NCBI GenBank assembly: GCA_029945665.1
Contig: JAQSCZ010000033.1
Span: 1-35,394, forward strand
Length of the DNA: 35,394 nt
From: a bacterium
Lineage (GTDB): Bacteria; Bacteroidota; Bacteroidia; NS11-12g; UBA955
Direction: 5' to 3'
Part shown: positions 2,606-22,702 of the stretch, piece after piece
Numbering within the stretch: the stretch's first letter is position 1
Layout of the letters: each line of letters starts with the position of its first letter
The notes under the pieces: model-generated
Told to the model about the DNA's origin: nothing
Database searches by the model: none
What the model saw: the letters and a program-made list of their open reading frames with translations, nothing else
Made by a program: the position numbers and the translations under genes

Positions 2606-5600
2606 ATGAAGAAATTTACTGATTTAAAAAATCTTTCTCTTTTCTTTCTCGCATTGCTCTTACATCCTTTCTCTTCCAAAGCTCAAATTTATGAGGGAGT
2701 AGAGGCTAGTAGACAATTGTGGGGAGCCGATTTGCTGAAAATAAATAGTGTAACGGGAAATATTCAGTACGCGCAATTCAAGAATCCAATGGCCTTAAGC
2801 ACTGAAAATGTTAAAATTTATTTAGAGAAAATATACAAGCTAAAAAGGCCTTATGCATTACAATTGATAAAGCAAGAATCCGATGAGTTAGGCTATATTC
2901 ATTTGCGATTCCAACAAATATTCAATGGCATTCCTGTTTTAGGTGGAACATTAATAGCCCACACCAAAAACAACCATTTAGTCTCGTTTAATGGTGAAAT
3001 TTTTGAAATAAATATCTCTGAGCTAAAGACATTAAATGCCCCAGAGTGTCTAAGTATTGCCTTGGATACCATTGCAGCCAAAGTTTATAAATGGCAAGTG
3101 GCCGAAGAAGAAGCCATGCTTAAAGAAATTAAGGAGGATCCTCAAGCTACTTGGTTGCCAAAAGGCAAATTGATGTATTGTCCTATCAATTTAGATTATA
3201 GTAATCCTACTTTTTATTTGGTGTATCAATTCTCTATTTATGCCAACGAACCTCTGATTGGCGAGAATATTTATATCAGTGCAATTAGCGGAAAAGTTAT
3301 AGCAAGGGAAAATAAATTACACAATACAAATGTCACCGGACAGGCTAGCACCAAATACAGCGGATCGCAAGCTATCAGCACAGATAGCACTGCTCCTGGT
3401 AATTATAGATTAAGAGAAACTGTGCGAGGAAATGGCATCATTACACTAAATCTCAAAAAATCTACAAATTATGGAACGGCTGTAGATTTTACCGATGCTG
3501 ATAACAATTGGAACAATGTAAATGCTGCAAAAGATGAGGTAGCAACAGATTGTCACTGGGGTGCTGGTAAAACCTATGATTATTATAAAGCCAAATTTAA
3601 TCGAAATAGTTACGATAATAACAACGCCAAAATTATAAGTTACGTTCATTATTCTAATAATTATGACAATGCTTTTTGGAATGGCGTATGCATGACGTAT
3701 GGCGATGGTAGTGCCTTTAAACCTTTAACATCAATCGATGTATGCGGTCATGAAATTACACATGCTGTAACATCTAACACAGCCAACTTGGTATATAGTT
3801 ACGAATCTGGCGCATTAAATGAATCCTTCAGCGACATTTTTGGAAATTCTATTGAACGCTATGCAAAGCCAACAGGTTACAGTTGGAAAATTGGCGAAGA
3901 AATAACCTTTAGTGGCAATGGATTGCGCAATATGCAAAATCCAAAGTTGTTTAATAATCCTCGCTGTTATAAAAGTACATACTGGTATGCTGGTTCTGCA
4001 GATAATGGGGGCGTTCATACCAATAGTGGCGTTCAGAATTGGTGGTATTATTTAATTTGCGAAGGTGGTTCAGGCACCAATGATCCTGGTAATGTATATA
4101 AGGTTGATAGTATCGGAATTACTAAAGGGGAACAAATTGCTTATCGCAATTTAACGTATTATTTAACGTCTTCATCGCAATATGCAGATGCTAGATTTTA
4201 TTCTATCCGAGCAGCTACCGATTTATATGGTGCTTGTAGTAAGGATGTCATATCCGTAACCAATGCTTGGTACGCTTGTAATGTTGGTCCGAAATACGAT
4301 AGCGGTTATGTGAAAGCGGCCTTTATAGCCGATACAGTAGTTTGTAGCGCAAGTAAAACAGTTAATTTCATTAATTTAAGTACAAATGCAGTAAGCAGTA
4401 AATGGTATTTTGGAGATGGTAGTACCTCGGCACTTTATAATGCAAATCATTCTTATGCTGGCTTTGGCTCTTATACTATTAAATTGGTTTCCACCAGTTG
4501 CTTTAAAAATATTAGAGACAGTGTGACCAAAACAGCTTATGTTAAAATTGATTCTACTTTTGATATTTGTAATGCAGTTTTAATGCCTGCTTCGGTTACA
4601 GACAGTACTCATAAATGCATGTCTTATGTCTATGATGATGGGGGAGAAGGGGATTATAAGGAACAGCGCATAACAACTTTTCGAATTAGCGCACCAGGGT
4701 CTGATTCGATTCGCATTAAGTTCTCCGATTTTGATTATGAATTGAATTATGACAGTCTTTATATCTATAAAGGGAAATATCCCGGAGGAACCAAATTAGG
4801 CGGATTTACCGGCAGTAGTTTGCCTTTTGGGGGTAAAAACTTTGCTGTTGCTGGCAGTATGATTACACTTAGGCATGTGTCCGATCAACTTGTAGTTGGC
4901 CGTGGTTTTAAAATGTTTTATACAGCCTTTAAAAAACCAGTAAGTATCAAAGCATACGCCGATACAACAATTTGCTTTGGCAATTCAACTTTGCTTTATG
5001 CATCTGGTAAGGGGGGGTATTACAACGACTATTTTTTCAATTGGAAAAACCAACTATACAATGATTCAATTGTCGTTAAACCTCTTTCTTTAACAACCTA
5101 TAAAGTATATCTTACAGATGTTTGCACCAAATCTAAAGACTCTGCACAAGTGAGTGTTGCCGTTCGCTCTCCTTTGAAAGTAAAAGTGACAAAGGATACG
5201 GCGATTTGTGCTGGTCAATCTGTTAATCTAAGAGCCATTGCATCAGGTGGAAAAAATGCCACTTATTTATATACTTGGAACAATGGTTTGAATAATGATA
5301 GTTCTCAAATGGTTGTACCTGTTGCTACAACAACCTACCGTGTAATTATTTCTGATGGATGCACACCAAAGCAAGACACAGCATTTGTAGAGATTAAAGT
5401 TAAGAACCCGCTGTCTGTTAAAATTAATACAACCGATACTGTAATTTGTTACAATAAAGCTGCAGCCTTATCGGCAAGCGGAGCTGGAGGCAATGGAAAT
5501 TATATGTATACTTGGAATAGTGGCTTGGGTTCAGGTAATGTAAAAGTTATAAATCTAGTCTCAAGTCAATGGGTGAAAGTGAGCTTGTCGGATGCATGCA

Positions 5601-7828
5601 CTGTGAAACCCGCTTTAGATTCAGTGTATATCAAGGTGAACGAAGCCTTAAAAGTTAGCCTGAATAATGATTCTACCATTTGTAAGGGCAGTAATATAAA
5701 ATTAGTTGCAACATGCACCGGTGGAGTAGTTGCCAAATATAGTTATCAGTGGACACAAGGTTTGCCATCAGTGTCTTCGAATACAGTTGCTCCGTTGTCA
5801 AAAATAAAATATACAGTTACCTTAATCGATAATTGTTCGGATGCGGCAATCGACTCTATAGTAGTAGACGTTTTACAAGCTTTAGATATCAAAGGAATTA
5901 AGGATTCAACAATATGTCGAGGTCAAATTGTGCCTATAACTACCGTCGTTTCTGGTGGCAGAGCGAGCACGTATTCCTACTTGTGGAGCAATGGGTTAAG
6001 CAATTCATCTAGTCAACTTGTAAGTCCGAAATATACAACCAAATATCAGGTTGTCTTATCCGATGCTTGCACCGCCATTAATGATACGGCCTTTATTACA
6101 ATAACCGTCAAGGATTCTTTGGCACTAAAATTACTAACGGCCGACACCATCATCTGTTATAATAAAACATCTGCATTGAGCACCATGGCAAGTGGTGGTA
6201 ATGGAAATTATACCATTATATGGAACAATGGTCTTGGTGTTGGTGCTAACAAATCAATTTTACTTACTAATAATACTTGGTTAAAGGCAACGCTTTCAGA
6301 TGCCTGCACAATAAATCCTGCATCCGATTCTGTTTATGTAAAAGTGAGAGCGCCTTTAAAATTAAGTTTGAATAATGATTCAACAATTTGTTATGGTTCG
6401 ACCCTCCAATTAGTGGCGAGTCCGCAAGGTGGCGACAGTTTGAATTACGTCTATGCATGGTCGCCAACTTTACCAGCAATTTCAACTAATAGTGTTAGTC
6501 CGACTTTCAAAACTAAATATTTAGTAACACTTAAAGATAATTGTTCAAACAATGCAATAGATTCGGTCACAGTTAATGTGCTCGCACCGCTAAAAATAAG
6601 TGGATTGAAAGATACCTCAATTTGTTACGGTGGCACGGTTAATTTGAATCCTAAAATAAGTGGAGGGATAGCTAGTCAATATGTCTATCAATGGGACAAT
6701 GGGTTAGGCAATGTTTTACAGCAAACAGTAAGCCCTAAAATAAAGGGTACTTATAAACTAAGTGTCAAAGATAATTGCTCCAAGCCTTATGACTCTCTTC
6801 AAATAAACGTAAATGTTAAAGGGGCCTTGAAAATTACAAAATCGGTATCTAAAAGTGTTTTGTGCAATGGAGATTCGGCACTTTTGACACTTGGTTTTAC
6901 CGGAGGTATTCCAACGCAATACACATGGAATGTCAATGGTGTTAATACACTGAAACAATCGATTTATTTAAAACCAAATGCGAATACGCGTTACGCATTG
7001 CAGCTTAGCGATAACTGTTCTGACATTGATACAACAAGCCTGGATATTGTCGTTAACCCTTTGCCAATAGTAGATTTTGCAGTTGATAAGCAAACATTCT
7101 GCGAAAACGAATCGGCGCAGTTTAATAACCTCACAACAGGCGCTGCAGTATATTTGTGGAAATTTGGAACTAACAATACCCGAAATATATCAGCTCCTTT
7201 GGTTAATTATGCAATTGCAGGGAGTTTCGATGTAAGTCTAACAGCTACATCAGCACTTGGATGTAAAGCATCGCTTACCAAATTTGGTTACATCAATGTC
7301 ATAAAATTGCCAGTTAGTAAATTTATATTTGGACCAGATGATGCTACCTATTTAAATCCAGACATTACATTTACCAATGCGTCTAATAATTATGCTGCCT
7401 TCCTATGGGATTTTGGCGATGGTAAAACGGATAATACCACCAATGACCCAATACATTCATACGGAGACACTGGTACTTACAAAGTAATGCTTACGGTTTT
7501 GAATAGTCCGGGTTGCCCTGATGTTACAAGCCAATATATCCATATTAAAGATGTTTTTTCTATGTACATTCCGACTGCTATATCTATTAATGGCGATGGC
7601 TTAAATGATGAATTAAAAATCATTTCGAGAGGAGTTAAAACGTTTGAATATGAGCTATACAATCGCTGGGGTGAAAAAGTGTATACTTCAAATCAGTTAG
7701 ACAATACGTTTAACGGAATCGACCACAATGGCAAGTTGGTAATGAATGGGACTTATTTACTAATGATGCGAGTAAAGGATTTTTCGGGGAAAGTTTATTA
7801 TATCAAACAAACCGTGGAAATTCTATAA
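2606..7828 (+). CDS. M4 (thermolysin-like) metalloprotease with CUB, nine Ig-like repeats and T9SS type B sorting domain
   Basis: This is a 1740-residue secreted zinc protease. In order: signal peptide (1-26); fungalysin/thermolysin propeptide region (about 60-230); M4 catalytic domain (about 245-570) with HEITH at 382-386, the third zinc ligand E406 (24 residues after H382, as in thermolysin) and the catalytic His H471 in GGVHTNSG; a PKD unit (W600 in WYFGDG); a CUB domain (about 650-775). A stalk of nine Ig-like units follows, with a conserved first Cys at 790, 868, 948, 1026, 1104, 1184, 1262, 1340 and 1420. Two PKD-like units come next (W1518, W1601), then a gliding-motility/type B T9SS C-terminal domain (about 1653-1740). 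All catalytic residues are present, so it is predicted active after propeptide removal. It probably degrades extracellular protein while held at the surface. The long stalk is inferred to position the enzyme away from the cell. Confidence 0.93.
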   Translation: MKKFTDLKNLSLFFLALLLHPFSSKAQIYEGVEASRQLWGADLLKINSVTGNIQYAQFKNPMALSTENVKIYLEKIYKLKRPYALQLIKQESDELGYIHLRFQQIFNGIPVLGGTLIAHTKNNHLVSFNGEIFEINISELKTLNAPECLSIALDTIAAKVYKWQVAEEEAMLKEIKEDPQATWLPKGKLMYCPINLDYSNPTFYLVYQFSIYANEPLIGENIYISAISGKVIARENKLHNTNVTGQASTKYSGSQAISTDSTAPGNYRLRETVRGNGIITLNLKKSTNYGTAVDFTDADNNWNNVNAAKDEVATDCHWGAGKTYDYYKAKFNRNSYDNNNAKIISYVHYSNNYDNAFWNGVCMTYGDGSAFKPLTSIDVCGHEITHAVTSNTANLVYSYESGALNESFSDIFGNSIERYAKPTGYSWKIGEEITFSGNGLRNMQNPKLFNNPRCYKSTYWYAGSADNGGVHTNSGVQNWWYYLICEGGSGTNDPGNVYKVDSIGITKGEQIAYRNLTYYLTSSSQYADARFYSIRAATDLYGACSKDVISVTNAWYACNVGPKYDSGYVKAAFIADTVVCSASKTVNFINLSTNAVSSKWYFGDGSTSALYNANHSYAGFGSYTIKLVSTSCFKNIRDSVTKTAYVKIDSTFDICNAVLMPASVTDSTHKCMSYVYDDGGEGDYKEQRITTFRISAPGSDSIRIKFSDFDYELNYDSLYIYKGKYPGGTKLGGFTGSSLPFGGKNFAVAGSMITLRHVSDQLVVGRGFKMFYTAFKKPVSIKAYADTTICFGNSTLLYASGKGGYYNDYFFNWKNQLYNDSIVVKPLSLTTYKVYLTDVCTKSKDSAQVSVAVRSPLKVKVTKDTAICAGQSVNLRAIASGGKNATYLYTWNNGLNNDSSQMVVPVATTTYRVIISDGCTPKQDTAFVEIKVKNPLSVKINTTDTVICYNKAAALSASGAGGNGNYMYTWNSGLGSGNVKVINLVSSQWVKVSLSDACTVKPALDSVYIKVNEALKVSLNNDSTICKGSNIKLVATCTGGVVAKYSYQWTQGLPSVSSNTVAPLSKIKYTVTLIDNCSDAAIDSIVVDVLQALDIKGIKDSTICRGQIVPITTVVSGGRASTYSYLWSNGLSNSSSQLVSPKYTTKYQVVLSDACTAINDTAFITITVKDSLALKLLTADTIICYNKTSALSTMASGGNGNYTIIWNNGLGVGANKSILLTNNTWLKATLSDACTINPASDSVYVKVRAPLKLSLNNDSTICYGSTLQLVASPQGGDSLNYVYAWSPTLPAISTNSVSPTFKTKYLVTLKDNCSNNAIDSVTVNVLAPLKISGLKDTSICYGGTVNLNPKISGGIASQYVYQWDNGLGNVLQQTVSPKIKGTYKLSVKDNCSKPYDSLQINVNVKGALKITKSVSKSVLCNGDSALLTLGFTGGIPTQYTWNVNGVNTLKQSIYLKPNANTRYALQLSDNCSDIDTTSLDIVVNPLPIVDFAVDKQTFCENESAQFNNLTTGAAVYLWKFGTNNTRNISAPLVNYAIAGSFDVSLTATSALGCKASLTKFGYINVIKLPVSKFIFGPDDATYLNPDITFTNASNNYAAFLWDFGDGKTDNTTNDPIHSYGDTGTYKVMLTVLNSPGCPDVTSQYIHIKDVFSMYIPTAISINGDGLNDELKIISRGVKTFEYELYNRWGEKVYTSNQLDNTFNGIDHNGKLVMNGTYLLMMRVKDFSGKVYYIKQTVEIL

Positions 7829-17779: not shown

Positions 17780-19138
17780 ATGAAGCATGTTTTCCTTTTT
17801 CTATTGTTGTTTTACGCAAGTATTAACTACACAAAGGCGCAAATGGTAGGCGAAAGAATGGCTATAGATTTAGGAGCTGTTGAAAATTATAACAATGATA
17901 CGGTCTATTATTATTTTACCAATTCAGGTTCCAAAACAGTTTATTTTTTGCCAATACAGCCTGGAGAAAATTACCAAGTCTTATGCAGTAATAAAACAAT
18001 AATTCCAGGTGATGTTTTCACCATAGGACTTATTTATTATACTGAAAAAAAAGGTCGATTTAACATAGAAGTACCCATTAATTTTAGCAATAGTTTACAA
18101 CCAATTATACTTAAATTGTCGGGACAAATAAAATCAATCCATCCCAATGCACTAACTATCTGTCCTTCCATAGAAAATAGCAAACCGCTGAACAACAGAG
18201 TGCCGTTAAATATTGTGGTGCGAGATAAAGTTACCTATGAACAGATTAAAGATCCTAGCGTAAATGTAATCCAAAATCGCAGAACGATTACCTGTGTTCC
18301 TGGCTTTAGGAATATGGCATTTCAATGCAATTGTGAGTATGGTAGGATTAAAGTGAATGCAGAAAAGGAAGGTTATATGCCCGCTACAATGGTGTTCGAT
18401 TACAACCAAGAAAACAATACCTGTTTAATCTTAATCGAACGCTTGCCAGTTCCTTCGCCAGATACCATTCAGATAGTTTACAAACCTCAAGTAGTTGTTA
18501 AAAAGGATACCTTACGAGAGCCTCCAATTGTGTACATCCCAACTTCAGAATCCAATACAGGATTTAATGAAACTGCCTATAAGCCCAATCATTTAATATT
18601 TGTAATAGATGTGTCTGGAAGTATGAAGGATACCACTAAATTACCGTACTTGAAATCTTCATTGAAAGCCTTGATTGAGATTCTTCGGCCGCAAGATTTC
18701 GTGACACTAATAACTTATTCCAGTAAAACGAGGGTGGTTTTTGAAAACGTAAATGGTCAATCCAAAACAGCCTTGCTTTATGCCATCGATACTTTAACGG
18801 CCCGTGGTGCAAGTCTTGGTGCAGAAGGGCTCAATTTGGCTTACGAAATGGCACATCAACATTTTATAGTTGGAGGAAATAATCAGATTTTTCTAGCCAC
18901 TGATGGGCTTTTTAATGGAAATCATTTTAAGGAAGAAGACCTATTTAAAAAAGTAAAACAAGAGGCCACCAAAAGCCAAATTCGATTGACGACCATAGCA
19001 TTTGGTAAGACCAAAGGAGCATTAGAGTTTTTGTCAATATTAGCATTTAAGGGCAAAGGTAAAATGCTTAGAATACTCAATTTGAATACCGATAAAGATG
19101 TCCTAATTGAGGAGGTTAAATCTGGCTCTGTAAGGTAA
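17780..19138 (+). CDS. Exported VWA-domain protein with DUF1573-like N-terminus
   Basis: The protein has 452 residues with a signal peptide (1-20). An N-terminal beta-sandwich (about 25-120) resembles the DUF1573/ASPM-like modules that occur in Bacteroidota exported proteins. A middle domain (about 140-222) has several Cys (172, 183, 185, 215). The C-terminal von Willebrand A domain (about 268-445) carries an intact MIDAS motif DVSGS at 277-281 and an ATDGLFNG strand, so it should bind a divalent metal and a protein partner. There is no sorting domain or lipobox, so a periplasmic location is likely. Its neighbours are the J-protein (divergent) and the LysM gene (110 bp downstream, same strand). 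Its binding partner is unknown. Confidence 0.85.
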   Translation: MKHVFLFLLLFYASINYTKAQMVGERMAIDLGAVENYNNDTVYYYFTNSGSKTVYFLPIQPGENYQVLCSNKTIIPGDVFTIGLIYYTEKKGRFNIEVPINFSNSLQPIILKLSGQIKSIHPNALTICPSIENSKPLNNRVPLNIVVRDKVTYEQIKDPSVNVIQNRRTITCVPGFRNMAFQCNCEYGRIKVNAEKEGYMPATMVFDYNQENNTCLILIERLPVPSPDTIQIVYKPQVVVKKDTLREPPIVYIPTSESNTGFNETAYKPNHLIFVIDVSGSMKDTTKLPYLKSSLKALIEILRPQDFVTLITYSSKTRVVFENVNGQSKTALLYAIDTLTARGASLGAEGLNLAYEMAHQHFIVGGNNQIFLATDGLFNGNHFKEEDLFKKVKQEATKSQIRLTTIAFGKTKGALEFLSILAFKGKGKMLRILNLNTDKDVLIEEVKSGSVR

Positions 19139-19248: not shown

Positions 19249-20190
19249 ATGTTAAAAATATTCATTGGATTGTTCGCTTTTATAAGTGTTAACACCTTCG
19301 CCCTGCCTACAGATTCTATCGGAATGAAAACCGTTAATGGTAAAAAATATATCATGCACAAGGTTACCAGGGGTGAGGGTATTTATGGTATTAGTAAAAA
19401 ATACGGGGTGTCATCAGCCGATGTGTTTGCGGCCAACGAAGGTTCAAGCAATGGCATTAAGATAGATCAAGTGCTTTTAATTCCTTCCAATTCAACAAGT
19501 ACTACCTCTACAACTGCTTCAACAGCAACCGTTACAACTGTTAAAAAGGTTGAGAAAAAATACCATGTTGTAGAATCTGGTCAGACACTTTCGTTAATTG
19601 CCAGAAAGTATAATAAAACAGTTGATGAAATTCAAAAATTGAACAATTTAAAGTCTACAAATATTCAATTAGGTCAAAAGTTAATAGTTGGCGAAACCGT
19701 AACGAATGTGCAACAAACTGCTCAAGTAAAACCAACGCCAAAGGCCGTAGTTGTTGAAGATGAAACACCAGAAATAGCTGAAGATACCAAGAAAGAACCC
19801 AATACGACTCCAAAACCGATTCCCACAGCTCCTGAAAATGTTGTGGTGGTTACCGATAAAATGATTGCAGATAAAAACAATAACAAACCAGATCCAATGG
19901 TTACCAAAACGTATTCCGTTGAAGATGGCGATGAGGTTAGCGAAGATGGTATGGCTATAATTTCAACTGAAGGGGAATTAAATGCAGATCGCAGTTTTAT
20001 CTTGCACCCTACAGCAAAAATTGGAACCATTGTTATGATCACAAATCCAGTAAATAACAATGCAGTATTTGCAAGAGTAGTTGGTACCTGCAAACCAGGA
20101 AATGGTGTAATTTTAAAAATGAGCAAAACAGTGGCCGATAAACTGGGCATTTCTGAGGATACAAAGGTGAAAATTAATTACGCTCGATAA
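19249..20190 (+). CDS. LysM-repeat peptidoglycan-binding protein with RlpA/DPBB-like C-terminus
   Basis: This 313-residue exported protein has a signal peptide (1-18) and two LysM domains (about 34-79, VTRGEGIYGISKKYGV; and 104-147, YHVVESGQTLSLIARKYN) that bind peptidoglycan sugar strands. A Thr/Lys/Pro-rich linker (about 150-215) leads to a C-terminal domain (about 222-313) similar to the double-psi beta-barrel of RlpA-type proteins (HPTAKIGTIVMITNPVNN, then ARVVG). It is therefore a cell-wall-acting or cell-wall-binding protein. The stop TAA at 20188-20190 is immediately followed by the O-antigen ligase reading frame, implying one transcript and probably translational coupling. A long antisense frame inside the gene is a shadow. 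Confidence 0.88.
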   Translation: MLKIFIGLFAFISVNTFALPTDSIGMKTVNGKKYIMHKVTRGEGIYGISKKYGVSSADVFAANEGSSNGIKIDQVLLIPSNSTSTTSTTASTATVTTVKKVEKKYHVVESGQTLSLIARKYNKTVDEIQKLNNLKSTNIQLGQKLIVGETVTNVQQTAQVKPTPKAVVVEDETPEIAEDTKKEPNTTPKPIPTAPENVVVVTDKMIADKNNNKPDPMVTKTYSVEDGDEVSEDGMAIISTEGELNADRSFILHPTAKIGTIVMITNPVNNNAVFARVVGTCKPGNGVILKMSKTVADKLGISEDTKVKINYAR

Positions 20191-20197
20191 TTTTATT

Positions 20198-21442
20198 ATT
20201 GAAACTCTAAAAAAATACCACATTGTAATATTTTTAATATTAGTCGGTATTTTATTCTTTTCTTTTACGCTTTCCAAGGCGCTTATTTCAGTTTCCTTCG
20301 CCTTAATATGCGCGCTTGGTATTCGATACATTGACTTTAAACAAGAAAGTAGAACGAATCGTTCGATTTTAGTAGTTTTTGTTCTTTTTTATGTCCTTAT
20401 TGGGTTCTCCTTTTTTAATTCAATTAATCAACCAGAAGCTCTTCGAATTCTTGGGTTGAAAATACCATTGCTCCTTTTCCCCTTGGTTTATTTTGCCTTT
20501 AAGCCATTGCAAATGAAACAACATATTATTGCAGCTGTCATAATTAATTATGCGCTGTATTTACCTGCAGTTGTCAGTGTTTACAATTACTTAAGTAACA
20601 AGGAATTATTTGATGATTTAATCCTTCAATCTAAGCCATTACCCATTGAGTTTGGCTATGGTATACTGCATATTCAATTCTCTATTCTTTTGGCTTGTGG
20701 AATTCTTTACGGGTTGTTTGTCCTTATCAGATTGGATAAAAATAGTCAACAAGGTTTACTATTTTATGGATTGATTGGCTTAGTTTTTTGTAATTTTATT
20801 TTTATTCATATTTTAAGTGCGCGTACAGGTTTGTTGGGGCTATATGCTGGTATTGCCATTTTTTGTATTTCTCTCTTGGCAACAATGCCCTTTAAAACGA
20901 CGCGATGGTTACTGTTAGCCATTTTTGTTGTTCCTGTTTTAATGGTCTTATTTTCTAGTTCACTTAAAAATAGAATTGTTAATACATACGCCGATTTAAG
21001 GGTTGTTGTAGAAAATAAGGATGCCAACGATTATTCTTTTGCTATGCGTGTTAAGGCATGGCAAAATGCAGTAAGCGTCATTAAGGAGCATCCAATGTTG
21101 GGAGTTGGACTTGGCGATGCTGAATTGATTTTATTTAATAATTTTCAAAAAGTAGATCATAAGCTTGCCCCAGAAAATAGAAAAAATCCACACTTCCAAT
21201 TTTTAGAAACAGCAGTTCAAAGTGGTTTAATATGTGCCTTTTTGTTTTTGTTGATTGCTGTGCTAGGTTGCTTGAAAAGCAATGGTAGACGTAATTTTGT
21301 TCTGATAGGATTTATTGCACTTCTATATACTGCTTCTTGTTTTGAAAGTATTTTGGAAAGTCAATCCAACGTTATTCCATTTGTGTTTTTTATAGCCATT
21401 GGATTAGCCTTTCCTCCAAAAGGAATTGAAACGCATCATTAA
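20198..21442 (+). CDS. O-antigen ligase/polymerase (Wzy_C-type) membrane protein, non-canonical start
   Basis: A polytopic protein with the Wzy_C/O-antigen ligase signature: MRVKAWQNAVSVIKEHPMLG, GVGLGDA, then NPHFQFLETAVQSG with the conserved His. It probably joins or polymerises surface polysaccharide on the periplasmic face. The frame is open from 20171, and the residues before the first TTG (20456) form convincing membrane helices (YHIVIFLILVGILFFSF). The TTG start would therefore amputate about 86 residues and at least two helices. No ATG, GTG or TTG exists in frame between 20171 and 20455. ATT at 20195 or 20198, 5-8 nt after the LysM stop, is the best guess and gives about 414 residues, the normal family length. 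A sequence error remains possible. Confidence 0.78.
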   Translation: METLKKYHIVIFLILVGILFFSFTLSKALISVSFALICALGIRYIDFKQESRTNRSILVVFVLFYVLIGFSFFNSINQPEALRILGLKIPLLLFPLVYFAFKPLQMKQHIIAAVIINYALYLPAVVSVYNYLSNKELFDDLILQSKPLPIEFGYGILHIQFSILLACGILYGLFVLIRLDKNSQQGLLFYGLIGLVFCNFIFIHILSARTGLLGLYAGIAIFCISLLATMPFKTTRWLLLAIFVVPVLMVLFSSSLKNRIVNTYADLRVVVENKDANDYSFAMRVKAWQNAVSVIKEHPMLGVGLGDAELILFNNFQKVDHKLAPENRKNPHFQFLETAVQSGLICAFLFLLIAVLGCLKSNGRRNFVLIGFIALLYTASCFESILESQSNVIPFVFFIAIGLAFPPKGIETHH

Positions 21443-21487: not shown

Positions 21488-22702
21488 ATGCTATCATTAA
21501 AAAAGGGAGTTGTCAGTGTTTTTATAACAAAAGTATTGGTGGCTTTTATTGGTTTACTAACAGTTGTTGTTACCTCGCGTTATCTAGGTGCGCAGGGCAG
21601 AGGAACGATTAGTTTATTTACATCTTCCGTGGCTTTGGTGCAACTTTTTTGTGACTTTGGAAGTAGTTCAGCCATCATCAATTTGTCTTATAAAATCAAC
21701 CAATGGAAATTGTGGTTAAGTGCCGCAATATGGATTTTAATTATAGGCCTTTTTGCTTACTTAATAGCTTTTTTAGTACCTATTGAATATGTATTTTGGG
21801 TGCCGATAGTCGCCGTATTGTTTTCTGTTTTAAATTTAAATAATATGCTCTTAATGGGCAATAGAATGGTTGTTCAACGCAATGTTTTACTTGTTTTACA
21901 ACCCGTTTTGTTATTAATTATTTTTACAGGATTTGTATATTTTGAATATTTAATCAACATCGCTTATCCTATGGCTTTTCTTTTAGCTGTATCCTTAACA
22001 TTCTTGGTTTCCGCTTTTTTTATAGTTCCAAAATTGAAAGCAGCTGCTAGTCAAATGTTGTCATTTCGATTTGAAAAGCAAATCTTAACGAATGGACTTT
22101 GGGTACAAGGTGGCCATGCCATACAATTTTTAAACTACCGAATTAATTTTTTCATCATTGTTTTTTTTATTGGAAATGCGGCTTTAGGTATTTATAACAA
22201 CGCCTTAGTAATAGCAGAATCACTCTGGATACTTGGACATAGCATTGGGCAAATGATGCACATGAAAATATTGAATTCCGACAACCCGATAGAACATCGC
22301 AATTTAACCTTTCGAATGCTCTTGCTTAATTTTAGTGGCACTATGGTTATGCTTGTTGTTTTGCTCCTAATACCCGTTTCGTTTTGGGAATGGTTGTTTT
22401 CTAAAGAATTTGGCCGTATCAAAATATTGTTTTTTGCAATGTCACCTGGCATACTTTTCTTTAGTATTTCTAACATTCTCAATCATTTTTTTCATGCTAA
22501 AAATCAATTCAAATTTATTCTAGTTGTTAATTTAGTTGGTTTGTTTGTTGGCATAACTGGTAGTTTTATTTTTATACCCTTATATGGTTTAGTAGGAGCC
22601 TGTATTTCTTGGAGTTCGGCATTGACAGTTTCAATGCTTTTTTATCTGTACCGCTTTTTCAGACAGCCATTCTCAAATACACAAGGTATTTTTGGTGAGT
22701 AA
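21488..22702 (+). CDS. Wzx-type polysaccharide flippase (MOP superfamily)
   Basis: A 404-residue integral membrane protein whose sequence is almost continuous hydrophobic helices (about 10-12). The N-terminus FITKVLVAFIGLLTVVVTSRYLG, followed by GRGTISLFTS, is typical of oligosaccharide flippases in the MOP/MATE superfamily. Such proteins move lipid-linked glycans across the inner membrane. It lies 45 bp downstream of the O-antigen ligase/polymerase on the same strand, so the two likely act in one surface-glycan pathway. No glycosyltransferases are in the window. The downstream neighbour is convergent. Confidence 0.87.
   Translation: MLSLKKGVVSVFITKVLVAFIGLLTVVVTSRYLGAQGRGTISLFTSSVALVQLFCDFGSSSAIINLSYKINQWKLWLSAAIWILIIGLFAYLIAFLVPIEYVFWVPIVAVLFSVLNLNNMLLMGNRMVVQRNVLLVLQPVLLLIIFTGFVYFEYLINIAYPMAFLLAVSLTFLVSAFFIVPKLKAAASQMLSFRFEKQILTNGLWVQGGHAIQFLNYRINFFIIVFFIGNAALGIYNNALVIAESLWILGHSIGQMMHMKILNSDNPIEHRNLTFRMLLLNFSGTMVMLVVLLLIPVSFWEWLFSKEFGRIKILFFAMSPGILFFSISNILNHFFHAKNQFKFILVVNLVGLFVGITGSFIFIPLYGLVGACISWSSALTVSMLFYLYRFFRQPFSNTQGIFGE

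Follow-up and report, generated by a model that had tools for sequence, protein, structure and literature searches.

In a stretch of bacterial DNA of the phylum Bacteroidota (contig JAQSCZ010000033.1, 35,394 nucleotides, here termed the window), a gene encoding an O-antigen ligase/polymerase-like protein is devoid of ATG, GTG and TTG at the place where its coding sequence begins. This absence is conserved in relatives, the frame is under selection from its beginning on, and an ATT at positions 20198–20200 is equivalent in position to the ATG of a homolog. A comparison of homologous sequences suggests that the ligase gene is intact and under purifying selection, and that its translation is probably started at this AUU by ribosomes that have just terminated on the preceding gene, lysM. 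The use of AUU would entail a ligase production that is coupled to the translation of lysM and presumably low. The features that are relevant for this assignment are compiled in Table 1.

Table 1. Coordinates of the genes and codons at the lysM-ligase junction of the window
Feature	Position	Strand	Remark
lysM, upstream gene (313 residues, two LysM domains)	19249–20190	+	ATG start; PF01476 E 6.8e-24, in two stretches
lysM stop TAA	20188–20190	+	7 nt before ATT 20198
Candidate ligase start ATT (AUU)	20198–20200	+	ATT in G000, G005, G006, G011 and G014; ATG equivalent in G004; ATT at distance 26 in G022
Alternative ATT, one codon 5' of ATT 20198	20195–20197	+	ATC in G014, GTT in G022
ACG within the Tyr-Ala codons of lysM, main rival start	20180–20182	+	many order-level relatives carry ATG or TTG here, in frame with the ligase
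Wzy_C O-antigen ligase/polymerase-like gene	20198–21442	+	414 residues counted from the candidate ATT start
First 18 ligase codons	20198–20251	+	synonymous identity 0.83 (gene mean 0.48) among close relatives
TTG, first canonical in-frame start of the ligase	20456–20458	+	rejected; would cut residues 1–86 of the model
Flippase-like gene (Polysacc_synt), 3' of the ligase	21488–22702	+	ordinary ATG; possible operon partner

The ligase frame extends over 423 residues (20171–21442, forward strand), is closed upstream by a TGA at 20168–20170 and stands in +1 relation to lysM. It contains ATT codons at 20195 and 20198 and encounters its first ATG, GTG or TTG at position 20456. Except for the TGA, these coordinates, as well as the overlap of the lysM stop with the beginning of the frame, had been reported in a preliminary description of the same DNA and are confirmed by our analysis. 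The description had considered initiation at ATT, a +1 frameshift and a base error as explanations. What it had missed is the overlap of the ligase start with the upstream gene, which adds the ACG at 20180 as a fourth candidate. Directly 5' of lysM, the window encodes a VWA-domain protein with a weak match to DUF1573 (17780–19138), and at 2606–7828 an M4 peptidase of 1740 residues that carries FTP, CUB, PKD and CHU_C type IX secretion signal domains; neither an Rfam family at gathering score nor a tRNA was found within the window.

The relationship of the gene product to O-antigen ligases is reflected in its match to the Wzy_C family (PF04932; E 3.9e-19, 69.3 bits compared to a curated cut-off of 31.7) and in an AlphaFold2 model of the product counted from the ATT (mean pLDDT 90.3), whose best Foldseek match in the PDB is the O-antigen ligase WaaL (7tpg_B; E 3.8e-6, TM-score 0.58, rmsd 6.5). 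WaaL is also the only PDB entry matched by sequence (E 0.005). Both proteins share a multi-helix membrane fold and a Wzy_C domain, whereas the identity of 13% and the TM-score set them apart, and activity of the protein described here as a ligase or as a polymerase is a prediction. Among the invariant columns of an alignment of 38 ligase homologs are H204, R209, R284 and H332, positions assigned in this alignment, which are candidates for arginines and histidines of the active site with a putative role in catalysis. When the window is compared pairwise with G005, G006, G011 and G014, the ligase is saturated or nearly saturated at its synonymous sites (pS 0.66–0.82). For the part that precedes the first canonical codon (20198–20455), pN amounts to 0.24–0.32 at a pS of 0.66–0.80, and beyond 20455 pN decreases to 0.15–0.22. 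Judged from these substitution rates, the stretch 20198–20455 is conserved and under selection and the gene is not dead.

To place the missing start into the context of the family, we searched three overlapping sets for the protein, with a match in 90 out of 97 relatives, 64 out of 70 members of the family and 99 out of 107 members of the order. The start regions of 77 order homologs were aligned with the serine of a conserved TLSxAL-type motif serving as yardstick, and a homolog was classified as lacking a start if it contains no ATG, GTG or TTG at least 15 residues before this serine. On this basis, no canonical start is found in nine of the 77 homologs, seven of which are from genomes of the window's genus (G000, which is the window itself, G005, G006, G011, G013, G014 and G016) and two from other genera (G022 and G028). 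Since the seven genus members may form one clade (support 82/51), with G005, G006 and G011 being near each other, the number of independent events in which the start was lost is small. The loss in G028 is, as its sequence suggests, apparently a separate one. At the respective locus (L028), TCG takes the place of the TTG that relatives carry five bases 3' of the position where the upstream stop begins, and no canonical start precedes the first helix. Homologs with partial or unaligned N-termini, such as those of genus g6, were excluded, and L010 and L085, whose contigs start within the gene or shortly 5' of it, were left out of the start count. G013 is represented by L037 in place of L010, and its start region, located on contig C304, differs slightly from the longer copy on C213. 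Duplicates, the window, order members already counted and partial matches (L031–L036, L086, L087, L128–L135, L137, L138, L142 and L156) were not counted.

As a control at the level of the class, where the search matched 263 of 296 genomes, we inspected 58 loci, 57 of them from 56 genomes outside the order together with G068 of the order. These are mostly better-scoring full-length matches, with weaker or partial matches and two containing an internal stop (G221, G249) left out. None of the 58 loci lacks a start and in all 58 a canonical codon is located 15–45 residues before the motif, a count to be read with the caveat that the motif alignment is doubtful for some of the weak homologs.

The position of the start in genes of the genus that do contain a canonical codon points towards the ATT at 20198. 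In G004, whose protein is 47% identical, the sequence ATG GAA ACC aligns with ATT GAA ACT of the window, and no gap interrupts the alignment up to the motif. In each of the eight in-genus canonical homologs, the first canonical start is found 24–28 residues before the serine of the motif. The corresponding distance of the ATT is 26 in G000, G005, G006, G011, G014 and G022, 27 and 28 in G016 and 24 in G013, the latter coinciding with the distance of the ATG in G007, G009, G010, G012 and G015. The candidate is less clear in G028, which contains ATT at 32 and 28, with its relatives carrying TTG at 34, 32 or 28. With a distance range and a motif that were picked after inspection of the data and with lineages that are not fully independent, an ATT inside the range of 24–28 residues is present in nine of nine homologs lacking a start compared to six of 68 canonical ones (Fisher test, 3e-8), in seven of seven compared to six of 68 if close species are counted once (p 9e-7), in seven of seven compared to four of 38 if only the family is considered (p 7e-6) and in none of the eight in-genus canonical homologs, and the joint chance calculated from each gene's own ATT frequency for seven lineages is about 1e-5.

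A second line of evidence concerns the conservation of synonymous sites, which is expected to be raised at the start of a gene. The segment comprising the 18 codons from ATT 20198 ranks second of 396 in synonymous identity, with the value dropping to 0.23 at 20261–20305; the overlap with lysM on the 5' side of 20198 is constrained too. The structural model is consistent with this assignment in that helix 1, encompassing residues 2–22, begins at the residue that follows the initiator.

Other properties of the region are less favorable. In a leader model trained on 69 genes of this genome with a clear ATG, the sequence preceding ATT 20198 obtains a score of -2.3, at the 1.4th percentile of real starts, which counts against AUU, and the one preceding ACG 20180 ranks above it with +0.7 (18.8th percentile). 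The ATG starts of homologs from the same genus range from -1.8 (G007) and -1.1 (G004) to +1.5 (G010) and +1.6 (G012), and scoring of the leader context, which by itself ranks against AUU, was not decisive for selecting the start. Log-odds of codons in the N-terminal part of the ligase frame were uninformative. No conserved extended Shine-Dalgarno motif was detected before ATT 20198, and the AGGTGA at 20165–20170, which ends 27 nt before this codon, is not kept in G005, G006, G011 and G014. In the minimum-energy fold, an AU-rich hairpin of 8 bp (20184–20202) covers the stop of lysM together with the ATT codons; the 101-nt region that contains it shows no stability above shuffled sequences (z 0.07), and its stem, as judged by eye, is not kept in G014. 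We have also considered infC as a sign of a general use of AUU and have discarded it, as the first available start of infC in this genome is TTG, and there is consequently no other AUU start documented in this genome.

The conserved junction with the upstream gene provides an alternative start. In 72 of 78 homolog rows, the upstream ORF, which was taken as a LysM gene from its C-terminus and not by domain search, ends in the same [YF]A motif, with four rows lacking the motif and two having no such ORF as the contig begins there. Read in the +1 frame, the codons for Tyr-Ala or Phe-Ala (TATGCN or TTTGCN) contain an ATG or TTG, where many homologs of the order start their ligase. Of the 72 rows containing the motif, 48 have an open, in-frame codon at this site (ATG in 28, TTG in 11, ACG in nine). 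In the window clade, the tyrosine is encoded by TAC and the overlap site thus reads ACG. It could be envisaged that this codon, originating from the old ATG of the order by a synonymous change of TAT to TAC, is still weakly used, which we regard as unlikely. Such use would be in line with the neighboring family f2, where 29 of 30 rows have ATG (18 cases) or TTG (11 cases) at this position of the ligase frame, with the in-frame and open ACG in six genomes of the window clade and in G013, with its better-scoring leader, and with the codons just 5' of the ATT, which in G000, G005, G006, G011, G014 and G016 encode Phe or Leu followed by Ile as if they were translated. ACG is also enriched at 23–34 residues (seven of nine homologs lacking a start compared to six of 68 others), which is a consequence of the TAC codon. 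However, neither G022 nor G028, which equally lack a start, contains an in-frame ACG at this site, and of the 15 genomes of the genus in which a match was obtained, eight have their start 3' of the lysM stop and not always in the same frame (ATG at +2 to +21, TTG at +7 or +20, with the first base of the stop as reference). Moreover, the 32–34 residues between the ACG and the motif are within the range of the whole order but outside the 24–28 found in the genus, and the other homologs with an in-frame open ACG, G064, G017 and G050 from outside the window clade, each contain a nearby TTG or GTG.

The remaining explanations are far less plausible. A programmed +1 frameshift at CGA-TAA, proposed in the preliminary description as a way to fuse LysM to the ligase, would agree with the +1 relation of both frames in the window clade and with a frame that is open across the stop. 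It is contradicted by the fact that this relation differs among homologs lacking a start, with the ligase sharing the frame of the upstream gene in G022 and residing in the third relation in G028, while many relatives with the same relation as in the window simply carry an overlapping ATG or TTG. The codon preceding the lysM stop varies within the clade (CGA, AGA, AAA), and since LysM begins with a signal peptide, as judged by eye, a fusion would presumably place the N-terminus of the ligase behind a secreted domain and invert its topology. We thus consider a frameshift highly improbable. A similarly slim chance is attributed to translation from the TTG at 20456 or to a gene that decays in the clade. 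TTG is a legal start that is used by homologs, and synonymous identity rises a second time inside the ligase gene, to 0.66–0.75 at 20351–20440, but the preceding 20198–20455 is conserved and selected, contains the first helices and can be aligned with N-termini of ATG-initiated homologs, and the first canonical codons of G005, G006, G011 and G014 are found at other places. The loss of N-terminal helices upon a start at this TTG, noted in the preliminary description, is borne out by the model, where helix 1 is part of the truncated region. Finally, a base or assembly error hiding an ATG, which the same description had left as an option, would not be out of place in a draft assembly of 126 contigs, where two other sampled genes look frame-broken, but it is excluded by the same absence in independent genomes, namely those of six further species within the genus and of two other genera. 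Four of the genus members appear as named MAGs that were deposited separately, and the window differs from G005, G006, G011 and G014 by the near-saturated synonymous sites described above, leaving the probability of an error close to nil. Initiation at ATT is in this way the best supported of the three options initially considered, based on homologous ATG positions, the enrichment of ATT and the constraint on synonymous sites. The description had named a sequence correction creating an ATG and homologs lacking the first two helices as outcomes that would speak against a gene with a missing start, neither of which came about.

The extent to which the gene is unusual within its own genome depends on the feature that is considered. 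A first sample of 348 kb contained 286 ORFs with 100 or more codons, among which a distance of at least 40 codons to the first canonical start was seen in the ligase alone. This uniqueness did not hold in a sample of 1.49 Mb of the 3.79 Mb, where 1167 ORFs reach the same length and 17 of them show such a gap, illustrating that a long gap by itself is not unique. With 95 codons, the gap of the ligase is exceeded by only one other, and by none if ORFs shorter than 130 codons are left aside. Upon inspection of six of the other 16 cases, three turned out to have an ordinary ATG behind apparently non-coding sequence, two have the appearance of frame-broken genes and one is ambiguous; among the ORFs inspected, only in the ligase is the gap part of an intact gene and made up of conserved coding sequence. 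The loci L230:5123–6292 and L245:7455–8276 of this genome look like pieces of frame-broken genes, which, by eye, we take to be related to a multicopper oxidase and a nucleotide-sugar epimerase, respectively.

In the mechanism that we propose for initiation at AUU, ribosomes would translate lysM up to its UAA stop, and the terminating ribosome or its 30S subunit would stay on the mRNA without the help of a Shine-Dalgarno sequence. The fMet-initiator tRNA would then pair with the AUU located 7 nt past the stop, giving rise to a product of 414 residues beginning with fMet-Glu-Thr-Leu-Lys-Lys. As AUU is a poor start, the output of ligase would be low and tied to the translation of lysM. The proximity of the start to the upstream stop in a conserved order of genes, amounting to 7 nt in the window, is a property found in pairs of genes related by termination and reinitiation. 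The mRNAs of Bacteroidetes are described to lack Shine-Dalgarno sequences, with AUG being under-represented near their start codons (PMC6847099).

The choice of the tyrosine codon at the end of lysM bears on the question whether this arrangement is maintained. In the first sample of the genome, Tyr preceding a GCN codon is encoded by TAT in 206 and by TAC in 50 cases. TAC is present in all seven genomes of the window clade, where TAT would create an in-frame AUG. It is also present in seven of the eight other members of the genus, where the AUG would lie outside the ligase frame or be cut off, and its prevalence may thus reflect a general avoidance of AUG or common descent. With considerable reservation, we suggest that the AUU might be a maintained device of expression instead of a relic: the ligase would be driven only by ribosomes finishing lysM, AUU would keep its output low, and AUG would be excluded from the junction even though a single synonymous change from TAC to TAT generates it, with the switch having arisen more than once, in the window clade, in G022 and in G028.

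AUU as start codon is found in infC, which encodes IF3, and in pcnB of Escherichia coli, where it limits the output of an intact gene, as we assume for the ligase. Unlike infC, the ligase does not encode IF3 and lacks its autoregulation, and the infC of the genome investigated here has a TTG as first available start. Non-canonical starts are also described in a study on Staphylococcus aureus, where cvfC1 begins with AUU and ccpN and infC with AUA, with expression in poor medium at about 10% of the level obtained with AUG (PMC13009471). As in the ligase, these conserved starts were recognized only upon re-annotation; in contrast, extended Shine-Dalgarno motifs are reported for the S. aureus genes (PMC13009471), whereas none is conserved in case of the ligase, whose candidate start follows 7 nt after an upstream stop. 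The AUU starts named in the papers considered here are few, and the ones of S. aureus are reported with strong Shine-Dalgarno motifs (PMC13009471). In pncA/BBE22 of Borrelia burgdorferi, which starts with AUU, annotation from a later codon truncates the protein in a similar manner, but it concerns a different gene in a different phylum and its AUU was demonstrated experimentally, whereas that of the ligase is deduced from sequence (PMC13398362). A downstream gene that is translated by ribosomes having terminated on the upstream one has been described for reinitiation in E. coli, where the main reporter, unlike the ligase, contains an AUG, and where an excess of IF3 is reported to inhibit reinitiation and, separately, non-canonical starts (PMC2268962).

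Among the titles and abstract openings listed in searches of the open-licence literature on AUU and other non-canonical starts, also in connection with Bacteroidetes, O-antigen ligase and LysM, none reports the present case. AUU starts as such are already known; what would be new is a clade-conserved one that is located just after a stop in a phylum without Shine-Dalgarno initiation. If correct, our assignment would imply that reinitiating ribosomes can relax the choice of the start codon without the requirement for a Shine-Dalgarno motif. The homologs would then constitute a natural series in which a start codon has moved and weakened, from an ATG or TTG overlapping with the upstream gene to an ATG after the stop and an AUU after the stop. 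In annotation, a gene finder that accepts ATG, GTG and TTG only would truncate the ligase. A further candidate for a non-canonical start was observed in a sister family, where the infC frame of L088 (G060) contains no ATG, GTG or TTG before codon 57 and where the infC of both L088 and L096 (G062) carries ATA GAA near the beginning of the frame, which might serve as AUA start of IF3.
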